A stretch of 64,000 nt of DNA from Streptomyces sp. NBC_01476 (lineage in GTDB: Bacteria; Actinomycetota; Actinomycetes; Streptomycetales; Streptomycetaceae), in the NCBI RefSeq assembly GCF_036227265.1, contig NZ_CP109446.1, forward strand, positions 1,401,501 to 1,465,500, read 5' to 3'. Position numbers and translations under genes: made by a program. This document shows, one piece after another, positions 3,718 through 25,652 of the stretch. The notes beneath the pieces were generated by a model. It did no database searches and was not told the DNA's origin. It was given only the letters and a program-made list of their open reading frames with translations. Numbering within the stretch: position 1 is the stretch's first letter; every line of letters starts with the position of its first letter.

Positions 3718-4863
3718 TCAGGCTTTGGTGGCGCGGAGGATGACGAATTTGGGGTCGGAGGCGACGACCTCGCAGCTGCCGAAGAGACGGCGCAGGCGCA
3801 GGTGGTAGGGCAGGTGGCGGTTGGCCACCACAACCAGGGTGCCGCCGGGGCGCAGGGCGGCGTGGGCGGTGGCGAACATGTGCCGGGCCGCGGTCTCGGT
3901 GGTGGCGCGGTGGGAGTGGAAGGGCGGGTTGTTCAGGATCAGGTCGACGCTCTCCGGCGGGACCGCGGTGAGGGCGTCGGCGACCTGGAACTCGGCCTTG
4001 GTGGCCGGGTCCGCGTTGGCGCGGAACGTCGCCTCGGCGGAGGCGACCGCCTGGTGCGACTCGTCGGTGAAGAGCACCTCGCAGGCCGGGTTGGCCAGCG
4101 CCGCGGCCGTACCGACGACGCCGTTCCCGCAGCCGAGGTCGACCACCCGGTCCTGGCCGCCGCGCTCGGGCAGGTGCTGGAGCAGGAAGCGGGTGCCGAT
4201 GTCGAGGCGGTCGGCACAGAAGACGCCGGCGTGGTTGGTGACGGTACGGCCGGAGACCGCGCCGACACCCTCCGGGAGCGCGTACCGCAGCGGCCACGGG
4301 TTCGGGCCGCGCGCGGTGATCTCCGGGGTCGGCGTGCAGAAGATCAGCCGCGCCTTGCGGACCGCCCGGGAGGTGCGGGTCGGACCGAGGATCCGTTCGA
4401 AGAGCCGCAGCGTCGAGGTGTGGATCTCGGTGACCATGCCGGTGCCGACCACCAGGGTGTCCGGGCGGACGGCGGGCGCCAGCCGGTGCAGCTGGTCCTC
4501 CAGCAGCGCGAGGCTTTTGGGCACCCGGATCAGCAGCAGGTCGATCCGCTCCGGCGGGGTGTCCTGGGTGGACAGCAGCCGCAGCCGCGCCTGCGGGGCG
4601 TTGCGCCGCAGGTTCGCCCGAGTGGCCTGCTGGGCCAGGAAGGAGTCCGAGATCTGGGTGGGCCCCCACGGGGCCAGCGCGGTCGCCAAGGCGCCCCAGC
4701 GGTCGCCCACCACCACGATCTCGCCGTCCCGGGTGAGCCCCTCCTCCGCGAGGTGCCGCAGCAGATAGTCGTCGGCGGCATCCCACGCCCGCAGTTGCTC
4801 CCGCGGTTCGGCCGGGAATCGGGTCAGGTCGAGGTCGCCCCAGGGCGCGTTGAATCGGTACAT
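3718..4863 (-). CDS. RsmC/RlmG-like class I SAM methyltransferase
   Basis: Probable rRNA guanine-N2 methyltransferase. 381 residues in two tandem Rossmann-like halves: a degenerate N-terminal copy (about 1-185) and a catalytic C-terminal copy (about 200-381). The SAM motif VDLGCGNGVVG is at 241-251 and the target-amine motif NNPPFHSH at 311-318, the signature of RsmC/RlmG-type N2-guanine enzymes. It lies upstream of argC on the same strand with a 90-bp gap that holds the arg promoter, so it is a separate unit. Whether the target is 16S or 23S rRNA cannot be told from the sequence. Confidence 0.82.
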   Translation of the reverse strand: MYRFNAPWGDLDLTRFPAEPREQLRAWDAADDYLLRHLAEEGLTRDGEIVVVGDRWGALATALAPWGPTQISDSFLAQQATRANLRRNAPQARLRLLSTQDTPPERIDLLLIRVPKSLALLEDQLHRLAPAVRPDTLVVGTGMVTEIHTSTLRLFERILGPTRTSRAVRKARLIFCTPTPEITARGPNPWPLRYALPEGVGAVSGRTVTNHAGVFCADRLDIGTRFLLQHLPERGGQDRVVDLGCGNGVVGTAAALANPACEVLFTDESHQAVASAEATFRANADPATKAEFQVADALTAVPPESVDLILNNPPFHSHRATTETAARHMFATAHAALRPGGTLVVVANRHLPYHLRLRRLFGSCEVVASDPKFVILRATKA

Positions 4864-5168
4864 CGTGCCTGCAAGCGTAGGGCCTGCGCGGCCGGCGCGG
4901 TGTGGGCCGCCGGGCGGGGGCGCCGGGGGGCGGTGGCGTGGTGCCGTGGGGGTGCGTCGCCGGCCGGCGGTCCGGGGGGTGCGTCGCTGGGCTGCGGACG
5001 TGCGGGCCGGGCGGGGCCGGGCCGGGCCGGGCCGCGGGCATACGGGCGCTGGGCCGGGCTGAGCCGGGCGGGGCCGGGGACATGCGGGTCGGGCCGGGCC
5101 GGACCGCGGGCATACGGAGACGGTCCGGGCGGGGCCGGGTGCTTACGGGGCCGGGCGCCGGCATGCGG
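4864..5168. repeat. GC-rich degenerate tandem repeats, no gene
   Basis: About 300 bp of GGGCCGGGC-type low complexity. A CATACGG/CATGCGG-like core recurs at about 4999, 5039, 5080, 5110, 5142 and 5161, followed each time by GGGCCGGGC runs. All frames are open only because of composition. The spacing is irregular (roughly 20-42 bp), so this is a decayed array, not a clean satellite. Confidence 0.6.
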
Positions 5169-5201
5169 CGGGGCCCGGAGGCATGTCCAGCCTCCGGGCC
5201 C
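5169..5201 (-). terminator. Strong hairpin terminator after the tRNA-like RNA locus
   Basis: A perfect 13-bp stem (GGGGCCCGGAGGC paired with GCCTCCGGGCCCC) closes a 7-nt loop. It lies about 40 nt downstream of the last tRNA-like element on the minus strand. There is no T-run, as is common in Streptomyces. It suggests the locus is a transcribed unit ending here. Confidence 0.7.
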
Positions 5202-5240
5202 CTGAGAATGCCGCTTCCGTGCACACGCCGGCACACTTGA

Positions 5241-5345
5241 GGCCGCGGGTCAGTCTGATGTCGTCGCGTTCTGCCATTGAACTACCGGTGCAGGAAGAGC
5301 ACCGGACCGGATTCGAACCGGCACCTGACGACCTAGCCCACGGCC
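5241..5345 (-). ncRNA. Permuted tRNA-like RNA, copy B
   Basis: Read on the minus strand, the tRNA parts come in the order 3' half then 5' half. A T arm (GCCGG stem, TTCGAAT loop, CCGGT stem; 5306-5322) is followed by the 3' acceptor strand CCGGTGC (5299-5305), a 7-nt linker TCTTCCT, the perfectly complementary 5' acceptor strand GCACCGG (5285-5291), TA, and a D arm with GTTC/GAAC stem and AATGGCA loop (5268-5282). GTCGTC and GACGAC then form the anticodon-stem equivalent. The flanks GGCCGTGGG (5337-5345) and CCCGCGGCC (5241-5249) pair over 9 bp with one G-U. The 5' half resembles bacterial tRNA-Gly. Either a circularly permuted tRNA or a YrlA-type Y RNA; the anticodon cannot be assigned. Confidence 0.72.
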
Positions 5346-5391
5346 GGTCGATCCGGCGATAAGCGGCGACTGCTGAGTCTGGAGCGAGAGT

Positions 5392-5501
5392 CTGAGATTG
5401 ATCGCGGTCTGCCTCTGCCGATTGGGCCACCCCGGCCAGAAATGTGCCGGGGGAGGGATTCGAACCCTCACTGGAACCGCCTCCATCACGACAAGCCTCA
5501 G
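5392..5501 (-). ncRNA. Permuted tRNA-like RNA, copy A
   Basis: Same permuted order as copy B. The T arm has GAGGG/CCCTC stems around TTCGAAT (5453-5469). It is followed by the 3' acceptor CCCCGGC (5446-5452), a 9-nt linker, the perfectly complementary 5' acceptor GCCGGGG (5430-5436), TG, and a D arm with GCC/GGC stem and a loop containing GG. GCGGT (5476-5480) pairs with ACCGC (5404-5408) as the anticodon-stem equivalent. The helix can extend through TGAT/ATCA and CTGAG/CTCAG in the flanks, with an asymmetric internal loop (GGAG against G). No 5' acceptor lies upstream of the T arm, so it is not a normal tRNA gene. A conserved uridine before an anticodon is not clearly placed, which favours a tRNA mimic over a decoding tRNA. 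Confidence 0.72.
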
Positions 5502-5510
5502 CTTCAGCTT

Positions 5511-5547
5511 TGCGCTTCTCGCGCACCCTCCGCGCTCCCGCGGAGGG
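5511..5547 (-). other. Two abutting hairpins leading into RNA copy A
   Basis: On the minus strand a 9-bp stem (CCCTCCGCG/CGCGGAGGG, loop GGAG) is followed without a gap by a 5-bp stem (TGCGC/GCGCA, loop GAGAA). They lie directly upstream of copy A and may be part of the same structured RNA or a processing signal. Confidence 0.5.
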
Positions 5548-5624
5548 CATCCAAGGGGGTACTGCCGCCGTCAGCCGTCATCATCGAACGTCGTCCAGGC
5601 ACGTCGGGGACGTCAAGACGGCGG

Positions 5625-6356
5625 CTACCCGAAGAGGTACCCGAACACCGCGTCGCCGACCCGCCGGTCGGCGACCTCAGCGCCGTTCGCCTCCTCCCGG
5701 GCGAACTTCACCGCCTGCTGCACCTTCTCGACGCGCTCCAGGAGTTCGTTCACCCGGCGGGCAGGCAGCGCGCCGGAGAACTTGACCGTGGTCCAGTAAC
5801 CGACCGGCACGTCCTCGTAGTACACCTCCACCTGCGCGGGGTGCTTCTCGGTCGCCTCCGCCTTCACATGGTTGCGCGGCACCTTCTTGGTGCGGATCGT
5901 CCGCACCGCCTCGGTCTTCCACGCGTCGGTGGAGGCGTCCAGGTTCCACGCTTCGGCCGCGTCCAGCACCGGCAGCTTGCGGACGAAGGTGTTCAGGTCG
6001 GTGAGCTGCTTCTCCAGGAAGAGCAGGTAGGACACGGGTACGTCCCGCAGCAGCGCGGTGCCGTCCACCGTGACATCCGCGCGGGCCTCGCAGTTGGCCC
6101 AGTCCTTGGTGGCGGTCACGTCGAAGAGCCGGGTCAGCGCGGTCGCGGTGGAGCGCAGCACGCTCTCGGCCTGGATCTGCACGCGGGTCGACTCGGGCGG
6201 CAGTTGCTCGCCCTCCTCGTCCTTGGGCTGGTAGGTCCGGGAGATTCCGGAGAGCAACGCGGGCTTCTGCAGGTCGTGATGGGCCTGGGTCAGCTCCTGC
6301 TGCGCCTTGGACTTGACGCCCTTCTCGACCGCGATGATCTGGTTCAGTTTCGCCAC
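5625..6356 (-). CDS. Conserved actinobacterial protein of unknown function beside the RNA locus
   Basis: 243 residues from a GTG start (VAKLNQIIAVEKG). I recall this as a conserved protein of unknown function in actinobacteria (possibly the DUF7873 family; name from memory). No catalytic motif, signal peptide or membrane span is visible. The N-terminal half is charged and helical (KSKAQQELTQAHHDLQK), and a C-terminal helix (RVNELLERVEKVQQAVKFA) looks amphipathic. The upstream extension in the same frame lacks coding character. It ends about 80 bp before the structured-RNA locus on the same strand, so RNA and protein may be one transcript. A role in binding or handling that RNA is only an inference from position. 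Confidence 0.7.
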   Translation of the reverse strand: MAKLNQIIAVEKGVKSKAQQELTQAHHDLQKPALLSGISRTYQPKDEEGEQLPPESTRVQIQAESVLRSTATALTRLFDVTATKDWANCEARADVTVDGTALLRDVPVSYLLFLEKQLTDLNTFVRKLPVLDAAEAWNLDASTDAWKTEAVRTIRTKKVPRNHVKAEATEKHPAQVEVYYEDVPVGYWTTVKFSGALPARRVNELLERVEKVQQAVKFAREEANGAEVADRRVGDAVFGYLFG

Positions 6357-6465: not shown

Positions 6466-6678
6466 TCAGGACCGCTCGAACTCTCCTTGGGCAACCGCGG
6501 CCACGAAGGAGGAGAACGCCTCAGCCGGGAAGACCAGAACCGGGCCGCGCGGGTTCTTGGAGTCGCGAACGGGGACCACGCCGCATGAGGCGGTGAGGTT
6601 GGCGGCGACCTCGATGCAGTTGCCGCCGTTGTTGCTGTAGGAGGACTTGAACCAACGGGGTGACTCGTTCGTGGTCAT
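6466..6678 (-). CDS. DUF397 domain small protein
   Basis: 70 residues with the DUF397 hallmarks WFKSSYSNNGGNCIEVA and VPVRDSKNPRGPVLVFP. Such proteins are encoded next to XRE-type regulators throughout Streptomyces, where they act as partner or antagonist of the DNA-binding protein (the WhiJ/AbaA-like arrangement). The chosen ATG overlaps the XRE stop as TGATG; a GTG one codon upstream is also possible. Same operon as the XRE gene. Confidence 0.9.
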   Translation of the reverse strand: MTTNESPRWFKSSYSNNGGNCIEVAANLTASCGVVPVRDSKNPRGPVLVFPAEAFSSFVAAVAQGEFERS

Positions 6679-7517
6679 CACGGGGTGCCCTTTCGTACCT
6701 CTTCGATCATGGCCACCGATGCGGTCTGCGACAGCGATTCGGCCTGCAGTTGATGGTAGGCGGTCAACAGGGGGAGCACGGTCACACTTTCTCGGTCCAG
6801 ATGCCCCTGAGCCTGTGATTCGGCGTAGGCGACGACGGACCGGTCGGGCAGCGTCAAGAGGTTGACAGGCAGGTCGAACGTACGACGTTCTCCGATCTCG
6901 TACGGTGCCACCTGCAGCAGCGTGTTCGGCATCGCGGCGAACTCGACCAGCCGCGCCAACTGAGCATCCATCACGGCAGCTCCGCCAATCGGCCGACGGA
7001 TGCAGCTCTCATCCATGGTCACGAACAGCATGGGTGGGCGGGCCCGGACCAGCGCAGCCTGCCGGTCAGCCAGGAACGAGACCCGTTCCTCCGCCTGTGC
7101 CGGTGTGATGGCTCCCCGCCGCACCGCCGTGTTGGCCAGCACCCAGGCGTACTCCGGTGTCTGCAACAGGCCGGGAACGATCCCGATCTCAAACATCCGG
7201 ATCTCTGCTGCCCGGCCCTCATGGGCCACGTACTCGGGGAAGCCCTCCAGTAATGAGCCACGCCGCATCTCGCGCCACTCGCGCTCGAACGAGTCCGGTG
7301 AGTCTGCGGTCCCCAGTGCAAGGTCAACTGCACGTGCGAACGGGAGAGTTGGCGGCTTCCGACCAGTTTCAATGGCCGAAATATGCTGACTCGAATATGC
7401 CACGGCTGCGGCCAGTTGCTCCTGGTTCCAGCCGTGGTCCTCTCGCCACCTGCGAACGCGCGCGCCGTAAGCCGCTTGCGGGCTGCTGTCCGGGTGCAGC
7501 TCCTTGCGATTGACCAT
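6678..7517 (-). CDS. XRE-family regulator with DUF5753 domain
   Basis: 279 residues. An N-terminal helix-turn-helix (about 15-70: YGARVRRWREDHGWNQEQLA, HISAIETGRK) is followed by the DUF5753 sensor-like domain (about 90-270), recognised from FEIGIVPGLLQTPEYA, the VSFLADRQAAL stretch and MDESCIRRPIGG. It is cotranscribed with the DUF397 gene and divergent from a HATPase gene. This trio is the usual WhiJ-like developmental or antibiotic control module of streptomycetes. DNA target unknown. Confidence 0.93.
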   Translation of the reverse strand: MVNRKELHPDSSPQAAYGARVRRWREDHGWNQEQLAAAVAYSSQHISAIETGRKPPTLPFARAVDLALGTADSPDSFEREWREMRRGSLLEGFPEYVAHEGRAAEIRMFEIGIVPGLLQTPEYAWVLANTAVRRGAITPAQAEERVSFLADRQAALVRARPPMLFVTMDESCIRRPIGGAAVMDAQLARLVEFAAMPNTLLQVAPYEIGERRTFDLPVNLLTLPDRSVVAYAESQAQGHLDRESVTVLPLLTAYHQLQAESLSQTASVAMIEEVRKGTP

Positions 7518-25374: not shown

Positions 25375-25411
25375 GGCGTCAAAAAACGCCCCGTACGGGA
25401 CACAGGCGGGG
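25375..25411 (-). promoter_or_regulatory. Attenuator-like leader upstream of infC
   Basis: On the minus strand CCCCG (25407-25411) can pair with CGGGG (25389-25393), followed by GCGTTTTTT, the form of an intrinsic terminator with a T6 run (25381-25386), rare in this GC-rich DNA. An alternative hairpin GGCGT/ACGCC (25375-25390) encloses the T-run and would compete with it. The T-run lies about 90 nt before the ATC start. A control role for the IF-3 operon is inferred. The rest of 25295-25652 carries no gene. Confidence 0.45.
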
Positions 25412-25652
25412 CTCCTCACAACCGGGAGCACCGCCGCGTTATTCCGCGGGGCGCGTCGGACGGCGCCCGTCCGGCGGGAAGCCGATCGGGTTACCGTCTG
25501 ACCGGGACCCGTCGGCCGTCAGGCCGAGCAGGTGGGAGATCGGAGCCTCCACTTGGTGGCCGGACACATGGGTGTACGGCCGGTCTTCCTGCCACTATAC
25601 CCTCAGCCGCCCGCAGACCGTAATCGGCCGGGCTGGGCATATCGTGTGTCGC

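Follow-up and report, generated by a model that had tools for sequence, protein, structure and literature searches.

An RNA with two permuted tRNA-like domains beside DUF7873 genes of bacteria and phages looks like part of an undescribed tRNA-imitating RNA-protein particle

Architecture of the locus

The window, that is, the whole 64-kb stretch of Streptomyces DNA that was analysed, carries on its minus strand an RNA candidate between a gene of the DUF7873 family and a methyltransferase gene (Table 1). Its body consists of two adjacent tRNA-like units, each running in the order T arm, 3′ acceptor strand, linker, 5′ acceptor strand and D arm. The first-pass annotation had described this order, at this place and on this strand, with perfect 7-bp acceptors and linkers of 7–9 nt, and the observation is confirmed by our arm scan, which demands a T stem, at least 6/7 acceptor pairs, T8, and a D arm whose loop contains GG. 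Acceptor pairing is complete (7/7) in both units, the T stems are GAGGG/CCCTC in unit 1 and GCCGG/CCGGT in unit 2, and over both strands of the window the scan returns only these two units; a looser scan, without the T8 and D-arm conditions, adds four further, weaker places. ARAGORN calls no tRNA anywhere in the window, and the D arms are nearly unique in the genome: the exact pattern of unit 2 occurs at this place alone, and that of unit 1 at one other, where ARAGORN likewise sees no tRNA. A consensus scan of this stretch for a promoter or terminator found neither. With Rfam at its own cut-offs nothing is found at the RNA candidate; the sole such match in the window is the Scr1601 sRNA at 25381–25588 (−), with 128.9 bits.

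The flanks of each unit also pair with one another (GCGGTT with GACCGC, and GTCGTC with GACGAC), a feature absent from the first-pass annotation, and each half thereby takes the general shape of a bacterial Y RNA: a stem with a permuted tRNA body at its tip. In the predicted fold, unit 1 sits on a long irregular stem formed by motif A before it and motif B after it, unit 2 sits on a second long stem, two hairpins lie 5′ of everything, and one hairpin lies 3′. The 378 nt fold lower than 100/100 dinucleotide shuffles (z −4.39), and the units folded alone are unremarkable against theirs (z −1.38 for unit 2 and −0.85 for unit 1). Motif A is a run of hexamers of the form ANNYTN, with at least three in a row in 19 of 45 non-redundant two-unit loci against a shuffled mean of 0.03. 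By eye it can be read as alternating Lys/Leu codons, and, also by eye, four loci (L064, L065, L070, and L088) have one repeat that is 1 base longer, after which the pattern continues; since this breaks the frame, we take motif A to be an RNA motif.

Table 1. Features of the RNA candidate and its neighbouring genes (positions are those of the window)
Feature	Position	Strand	Basis or remark
Methyltransferase gene	3718-4863		best NCBIfam match RlmG, below its cut-off
Whole RNA candidate, ~380 nt (378 nt)	5170..5547	-	delimited by conserved hairpins; fold z -4.39; aligned with 22 relatives
3′ hairpin, possible terminator without T run	5170..5202	-	consensus fold
Stem 2, 3′ side	5224..5249	-	consensus fold, flank complementarity
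Unit 2 anticodon-stem equivalent, 5′ strand	5260..5265	-	re-pairing test
Unit 2 D arm	5268..5282	-	alignment
Unit 2 acceptor 5′ strand, GCACCGG	5285..5291	-	arm scan, alignment
Unit 2 linker, 7 nt	5292..5298	-	arm scan
Unit 2 acceptor 3′ strand, CCGGTGC	5299..5305	-	arm scan, alignment
Unit 2 T arm	5306..5322	-	arm scan, alignment
Unit 2 anticodon-stem equivalent, 3′ strand	5327..5332	-	alignment, re-pairing test
Stem 2, 5′ side	5336..5367	-	consensus fold, flank complementarity
Motif B; stem 1, 3′ side	5371..5402	-	fold, flank complementarity
Unit 1 anticodon-stem equivalent, 5′ strand	5404..5409	-	re-pairing test
Unit 1 D arm	5411..5427	-	alignment
Unit 1 acceptor 5′ strand, GCCGGGG	5430..5436	-	arm scan, alignment
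Unit 1 linker, 9 nt	5437..5445	-	arm scan
Unit 1 acceptor 3′ strand, CCCCGGC	5446..5452	-	arm scan, alignment
Unit 1 T arm	5453..5469	-	arm scan, alignment
Unit 1 anticodon-stem equivalent, 3′ strand	5475..5480	-	re-pairing test, 101 units
Motif A, tandem hexamers ANNYTN; stem 1, 5′ side	5486..5511	-	hexamer runs in relatives
Short GCGC hairpin	5511..5525	-	nearly invariant in alignment A1
5′ hairpin	5526..5547	-	covarying pairs in alignment A1
DUF7873 (PF25283) gene, ~243 aa, GTG start inferred from homologues	5625..6356	-	Pfam E 1.2e-120

The Pfam match to PF25283 spans residues 14–254 of the translated stretch, and the start of the gene was set from alignments A2 and A3 (the protein alignment A3 leaves out L046, which has an in-frame stop, L048, and L053). 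Searched against Pfam to E 0.001, the DUF7873 protein of the window gives DUF7873 alone, with no TROVE match; it has no NCBIfam match, two DUF7873 proteins were assigned to no PHROGs or PADLOC family, and no match was found to any sequence with a solved structure. Its structure model is of moderate quality (pLDDT 74.8, pTM 0.52), composed of long helices and long strands, and fold comparison with it gives no confident match, the best VIA-align Z of 6.7 lying in the uninformative range. Upstream of DUF7873, at 6466–7517 (−), the window carries a pair of genes for a DUF397 protein and an HTH/DUF5753 regulator. An IMG/VR contig (L046:4001-4726) has a DUF7873 frame with one in-frame stop, at residue 12.

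Pairing and covariation among relatives

Alignment A1 joins the window to 22 of the 29 other loci fetched from bacterial genomes (L002-L031), and the consensus fold of these 23 sequences has double changes in 40 of its 69 pairs. Both T arms, both acceptors, the outer stems, and the hairpins are retained in it, along with the D arm of unit 2. The units were also aligned separately across a wider range of loci, as non-redundant units with linkers of up to 12 nt (alignments A6 and A7); L058 (first unit), L023, and L031 were removed from the unit 2 alignment, L006, L029, and L084 were shifted from the unit 1 set to the unit 2 set, and the window's unit 1 and L038 were added to A7. In unit 2 (41 sequences), 85.8% of cells are paired, all 22 pairs have double changes, and the covariation score is 0.719, compared with 0.212 when shuffled and at most 0.242 when slid; in unit 1 (35 sequences), the values are 88.7% of cells, 18 of 21 pairs, and 0.499, compared with 0.146 and at most 0.162. 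The pairing figures for the T, acceptor, and D arms are inflated, because the scans that found the loci require pairing there. The first-pass annotation had named arms that fail to covary in relatives as the finding that would speak against its reading; the arms do covary, and the reading is not refuted by this check.

The anticodon-stem equivalent was under no such selection. It has at least five consecutive pairs in 68 of 101 non-redundant units, while 500 re-pairings of its strands between loci average 32.8 such units and never exceed 45, and its pairing in the two alignments reaches only 52% and 60% of cells. Measured against dinucleotide shuffles made within each locus (n = 37 for either unit), the longer flanks are complementary beyond composition, with a mean z of −1.60 for unit 1 and −2.08 for unit 2, and re-pairing of flanks between loci likewise favors pairing; since the loci differ in G+C, we base the claim on the same-locus shuffles.

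Of the 105 units labelled first, 77 have A as discriminator; of the 108 labelled second, 103 have U or G. These labels come from the D-arm pattern and are imperfect; since they misplace some Streptomyces second units, counts of unit order are not used. The unit 1 D arm of several phage and myxobacterial loci has what we take to be a resemblance to the D arm of tRNA-Leu, and in Myxococcota such as L064 a closed hairpin occupies, by eye, the anticodon position of unit 1. Linkers range from 4 to 83 nt across loci. In 39 phage loci, 29 of the 67 units have CCA after the discriminator, a triplet that both units of the window lack there. Its presence does not track the CCA habit of linked tRNA genes, as it is found in 12/22 units where these mostly lack CCA, in 3/5 where they mostly have it, and in 14/40 phage units without linked tRNAs.

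Linkage to DUF7873 in bacteria, plasmids and phages

An RNA candidate of about 330–380 nt lies beside DUF7873 in nearly every bacterial and phage locus examined. DUF7873 itself is present in 23 of 35 genomes of the genus and in 6 of 198 sampled across the phylum, including our own, all six from the same family. Among the 30 fetched loci (L002-L031, with the window as L006), the arm scan finds permuted units downstream in all except L026, in which one unit with a longer linker is visible by eye and matches R1, our covariance model of unit 2, at 32.8 bits. L026 (G017:C2:60196-61134) is a second, divergent DUF7873 in a same-genus genome, at 195 bits, with that single unit. Five loci (L017, L019, L022, L023, and L031) keep unit 2 and lack unit 1. 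L015 and L018 have, by eye, a long self-complementary insertion in the unit 2 linker.

R1, to which some of the 23 DUF7873 genomes contributed sequences, matches at the DUF7873 locus of 23/23 of them, with 65–94 bits, and the 12 same-genus genomes without DUF7873 have no match above 58 bits. Five unlinked R1 matches were fetched, and they prove to be three tandem tRNA-Asn pairs, a tRNA-Gly/tRNA-Ala pair, and a tRNA cluster. The tandem tRNA-Asn genes (L153, L156, and L157) reach 53–58 bits and present the order T, acceptor, acceptor, D at their junction. Tandem tRNA genes are thus a source of false positives for searches for permuted tRNAs, and for this reason R1 scores under 58 bits were left uncounted in the genus.

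In a scan of named genomes we took the best 80 of 494 relatives, from Actinomycetota, Myxococcota, and Acidobacteriota, 18 of which contributed to R1. At E ≤ 0.01, R1 matches beside DUF7873 in 80/80 of these loci, twice in 63 of them, and nowhere else in their 582,309 bases. The arm scan, over the same best 80 of 494, locates a unit no more than 1,100 nt downstream in 79 loci and two units in 32, compared with 4 hits in 1.08 million strand-bases elsewhere in the same loci; a unit is still found in 75 of the 80 if 7/7 acceptor pairs are demanded. In L075 the arm-scan hit looks, by eye, like a neighbouring tRNA, and unit 1 emerges once a longer D loop is allowed. In L066 both units lie just upstream of DUF7873, divergently and on the opposite strand, an arrangement that speaks for the RNA being a separate gene. 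A plasmid collection holds four DUF7873 records, including a Nonomuraea plasmid with both units (L063).

The association extends to phages. IMG/VR contributes 27 DUF7873 loci, counted as phage on the collection's word, and a unit lies downstream in 27/27 both by arm scan and by R1. With 7/7 acceptor pairs, the scan retains a unit in 26 of them and two units in 18, with 44 hits in the 28.9 kb downstream, compared with 2 in 414 kb elsewhere and with a mean of 0.01 in shuffled downstream regions of the same 27 loci. Four of these loci (L032-L035) fall among actinobacterial sequences in the protein tree and may be DNA of the host. Among GenBank phage records, 73 carry a DUF7873 gene, their names including Vibrio, Gordonia, Rhizobium, Klebsiella, Serratia, Arthrobacter, and Pseudanabaena; we picked 13 loci to cover the host names, with no Serratia phage among them, and found permuted units in 12. 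The remaining one, of a Microcoleus phage (L169), has DUF7873 without a permuted unit by arm scan or R1. On inspection by eye, L169 shows a T arm with an acceptor that may pair with upstream sequence in the normal order.

In several phage loci the DUF7873-RNA pair sits amid tRNA genes, and ARAGORN calls one or more tRNAs in 10 of the 27 IMG/VR loci, the call in L037 overlapping a unit and being probably spurious. R1 also matches phage tRNA clusters, up to 40.7 bits, and the linked matches in L037, L048, L052, L061, L062, and L172 score no higher; we therefore rest these six on arm scan and position. Klebsiella phage FBKp24 (L164:2277-2680) has a promoter annotated between DUF7873 and the RNA. 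The tRNA-Sup(TTA) annotated in FBKp24 at 2527–2606 overlaps unit 2, and is probably a misannotation. The locus sets share some members (L030 and L129, on contigs of equal length, may be the same record), so counts from different sets are not additive.

In the DUF7873 tree (114 rows), phage sequences occur on many branches, in places adjoining bacterial ones, and many branches are long or weakly supported. Ten neighbouring proteins, from five of seven listed loci in two phyla, share no common Pfam family.

Affinities of the RNA and the proposed particle

The closest relative we find is the bacterial Y RNA. With relaxed thresholds, YrlA (RF02553) is the best Rfam match for both units of the window, at 33.7 bits (E 1.7e-5) and 24.0 bits (E 0.011), under its cut-off of 69 bits; scores of 36.4 bits in L038 and 21.2 bits in L064 are also below it, and none of 18 loci, including our own genome's TROVE locus (L001), has a YrlA match at cut-off. 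The TROVE-linked RNA of another genome of the genus (L159) fails as well, at 42.2 bits, which makes this cut-off a weak test here; the Rfam YrlA model seems to miss actinobacterial Y RNAs. Among the Rfam tRNA families only tRNA-Sec appears, at 14.9 bits (E 5.6, cut-off 47). In the covariance search that the first-pass annotation had proposed, YrlA comes first with scores far under its cut-off, and no Rfam tRNA reaches its own. The Y-RNA-type tRNA mimic it suggested is supported by the topology, by these sub-cut-off matches, and by R1, which also matches RNAs adjoining TROVE genes of the same genus.

The Ro-like gene that it proposed to look for does exist elsewhere in the genome: a TROVE gene lies about 1.08 Mb away (L001, G000:C1:326097-327417), with its own permuted Y RNA beside it, while the RNA in the window stands beside the DUF7873 and methyltransferase genes and not beside Ro60/TROVE. 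Fifteen of the 35 same-genus genomes have TROVE; DUF7873 accompanies it in 12 of these and is absent from 3, and TROVE is missing from 11 of the 23 genomes that carry DUF7873. From this co-occurrence, and from the separate Y RNA at TROVE, we infer two separate systems side by side. The alternative, that the units are Y RNAs acting in trans for the distant TROVE (Ro60), with DUF7873 as bystander or helper, can draw on the shared topology, the YrlA match, the R1 match to the TROVE-linked RNA (42.9 bits), and the presence of the TROVE gene in the genome; the gene's distance, the Y RNA of its own, and the genomes that have one gene without the other make it improbable.

In the passages of PMC8394870 used here, YrlA is a stem formed by the RNA ends and capped by T, acceptor, and D arms, of which the stem binds Ro60 and the tRNA-like part binds PNPase. 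Our RNA candidate has the same permuted body and a closing stem from both flanks, and it shares with YrlA and Ro60/Rsr a dedicated neighbouring protein gene. It differs in adjoining DUF7873 rather than TROVE, in having two domains in one molecule, in its variable linkers, and, in many phage loci, in its CCA. We judge it to be a tandem tRNA mimic that resembles YrlA and has another, conserved gene as its partner. The cited part of PMC7824862 places TROVE in some jumbo phages too.

The layout also recalls circularly permuted tRNA genes, as known from algae and one archaeon, in which the 3′ half likewise precedes the 5′ half and a linker joins the acceptor strands, and the first-pass annotation had put this forward as a possible identity. 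The full acceptors, T and D arms, and the CCA encoded in many phage units would suit genes that mature into decoding tRNAs. The 7-nt anticodon loop of such genes is missing here, the stems are extended, and a conserved partner gene is present; as no anticodon loop is left, we do not call the units permuted tRNA genes. Beyond the anticodon-stem equivalent, the strands go on into paired, conserved sequence. Unit 1 is missing from five loci that keep unit 2, ARAGORN finds no tRNA, and a 2014 review (PMC3978253), in the passages cited here, counts 34 permuted tRNA genes in six algae and one archaeon, tied to BHB splicing. Genuine permuted tRNA genes are therefore very unlikely. A tmRNA-like molecule, with the linkers excised, the CCA ends charged, and motifs A and B encoding a tag, seems to us somewhat less far-fetched, though still quite unlikely. 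In two-piece tmRNA the acceptor and T arm are encoded ahead of the 5′ acceptor strand, as they are here. The common CCA of phage units, the range of linker lengths, the Lys/Leu reading of motif A, and a weak match of permuted tmRNA (RF04321) to a TROVE-linked RNA of the same genus (23.5 bits, E 0.012, cut-off 47) are in its favor; RF04321 is not among the matches listed to E 10 over 5100–5750 of the window, CCA is absent from 38 of the 67 phage units and from both units of the window, and the RNA offers no convincing tag frame. In Streptomyces, motif B would need AGA codons, which are very rare there. A peptide tag in motifs A and B is also disfavored by the 1-base longer repeat of four loci, seen by eye, through which the pattern persists.

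A cis-acting element in the 3′-UTR, attenuator-like or stabilizing, that controls the DUF7873 message would explain why the RNA is downstream and on the same strand in 79/80 loci (best 80 of 494), often within about 150 nt. It would sit poorly with L066, where the RNA is upstream on the other strand, with distances of several hundred nt in L057, L067, L082, and L167, and with the promoter annotated between gene and RNA in FBKp24, and two full tRNA-like domains with acceptor covariation exceed what such an element needs; we give it only a small chance. Decayed tRNA genes or mere chance can be set aside almost entirely: tandem identical tRNAs do produce the same arm order at their junction, but the window has no ARAGORN tRNA, its D-arm patterns are nearly unique in the genome, and linkage and covariation across phyla already contradict the idea.

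We therefore favor, with a probability of roughly 0.6, the reading that DUF7873 and the adjacent RNA form a two-gene module, whose product would be an RNP displaying two tRNA mimics; this is a judgment from sequence comparison. The RNA is likely to be made as a separate non-coding RNA. The assignment of DUF7873 to the stems and of tRNA enzymes to the caps follows the analogy to Ro60 and YrlA: we think it quite probable that DUF7873 would bind the RNA, presumably at the stems or motifs A and B, as Ro60 does with Y RNA. The caps may be recognized by enzymes that act on the tRNA elbow or acceptor, with RNase P, modification enzymes, and tRNA-cleaving or RNA-degrading nucleases as candidates, and the particle could then hold an enzyme or be a decoy, a step that we hold at somewhat less than even odds. 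In phages the most natural role would be that of a decoy or guard of the tRNA pool during infection, which we offer as speculation. The decoy idea is attractive for phages with tRNA arrays by analogy to YrlA, suggested in the cited part of PMC7790460 to be a competitive inhibitor of a tRNA-cutting enzyme.

Taken at its widest, the proposal would be of a new class of tRNA-mimicking RNP, with a protein distinct from that of Ro60-Y RNA, spread over at least three bacterial phyla (Actinomycetota, Myxococcota, and Acidobacteriota) and over phages of actinobacterial, gammaproteobacterial, alphaproteobacterial, and cyanobacterial hosts. The first of its two different mimics usually has A as discriminator and, depending on the lineage, may have a D arm of the Leu type; the second usually has U or G, and many phage loci encode CCA. 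The two would serve as baits for tRNA enzymes, for example blunting tRNA-cleaving defences during infection. In this full form we regard it as doubtful.

The tRNA-mimic body of bacterial Y RNA is already known as a partner of Ro60. What is new is that a single RNA carries such a body twice and lies, in bacteria and in unrelated phages, beside another protein family that is uncharacterized and widespread, and DUF7873 gains in the binding of a defined RNA its first testable function. The RNA is a covariation-backed family that no Rfam model matches above cut-off, and one may ask why phages should carry tRNA mimics, in some cases amid real tRNA genes. We found no mention of DUF7873 in the literature searched, nor of this system in the titles and opening lines of the abstracts listed on permuted or tRNA-like RNAs in phages and on Ro60/Y RNA in phages, and a term search of two Streptomyces RNA papers found no mention of the RNA candidate; the particle looks like an undescribed one. 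A paper on ArgR mentions SCO1581, solely as the gene next to argC.
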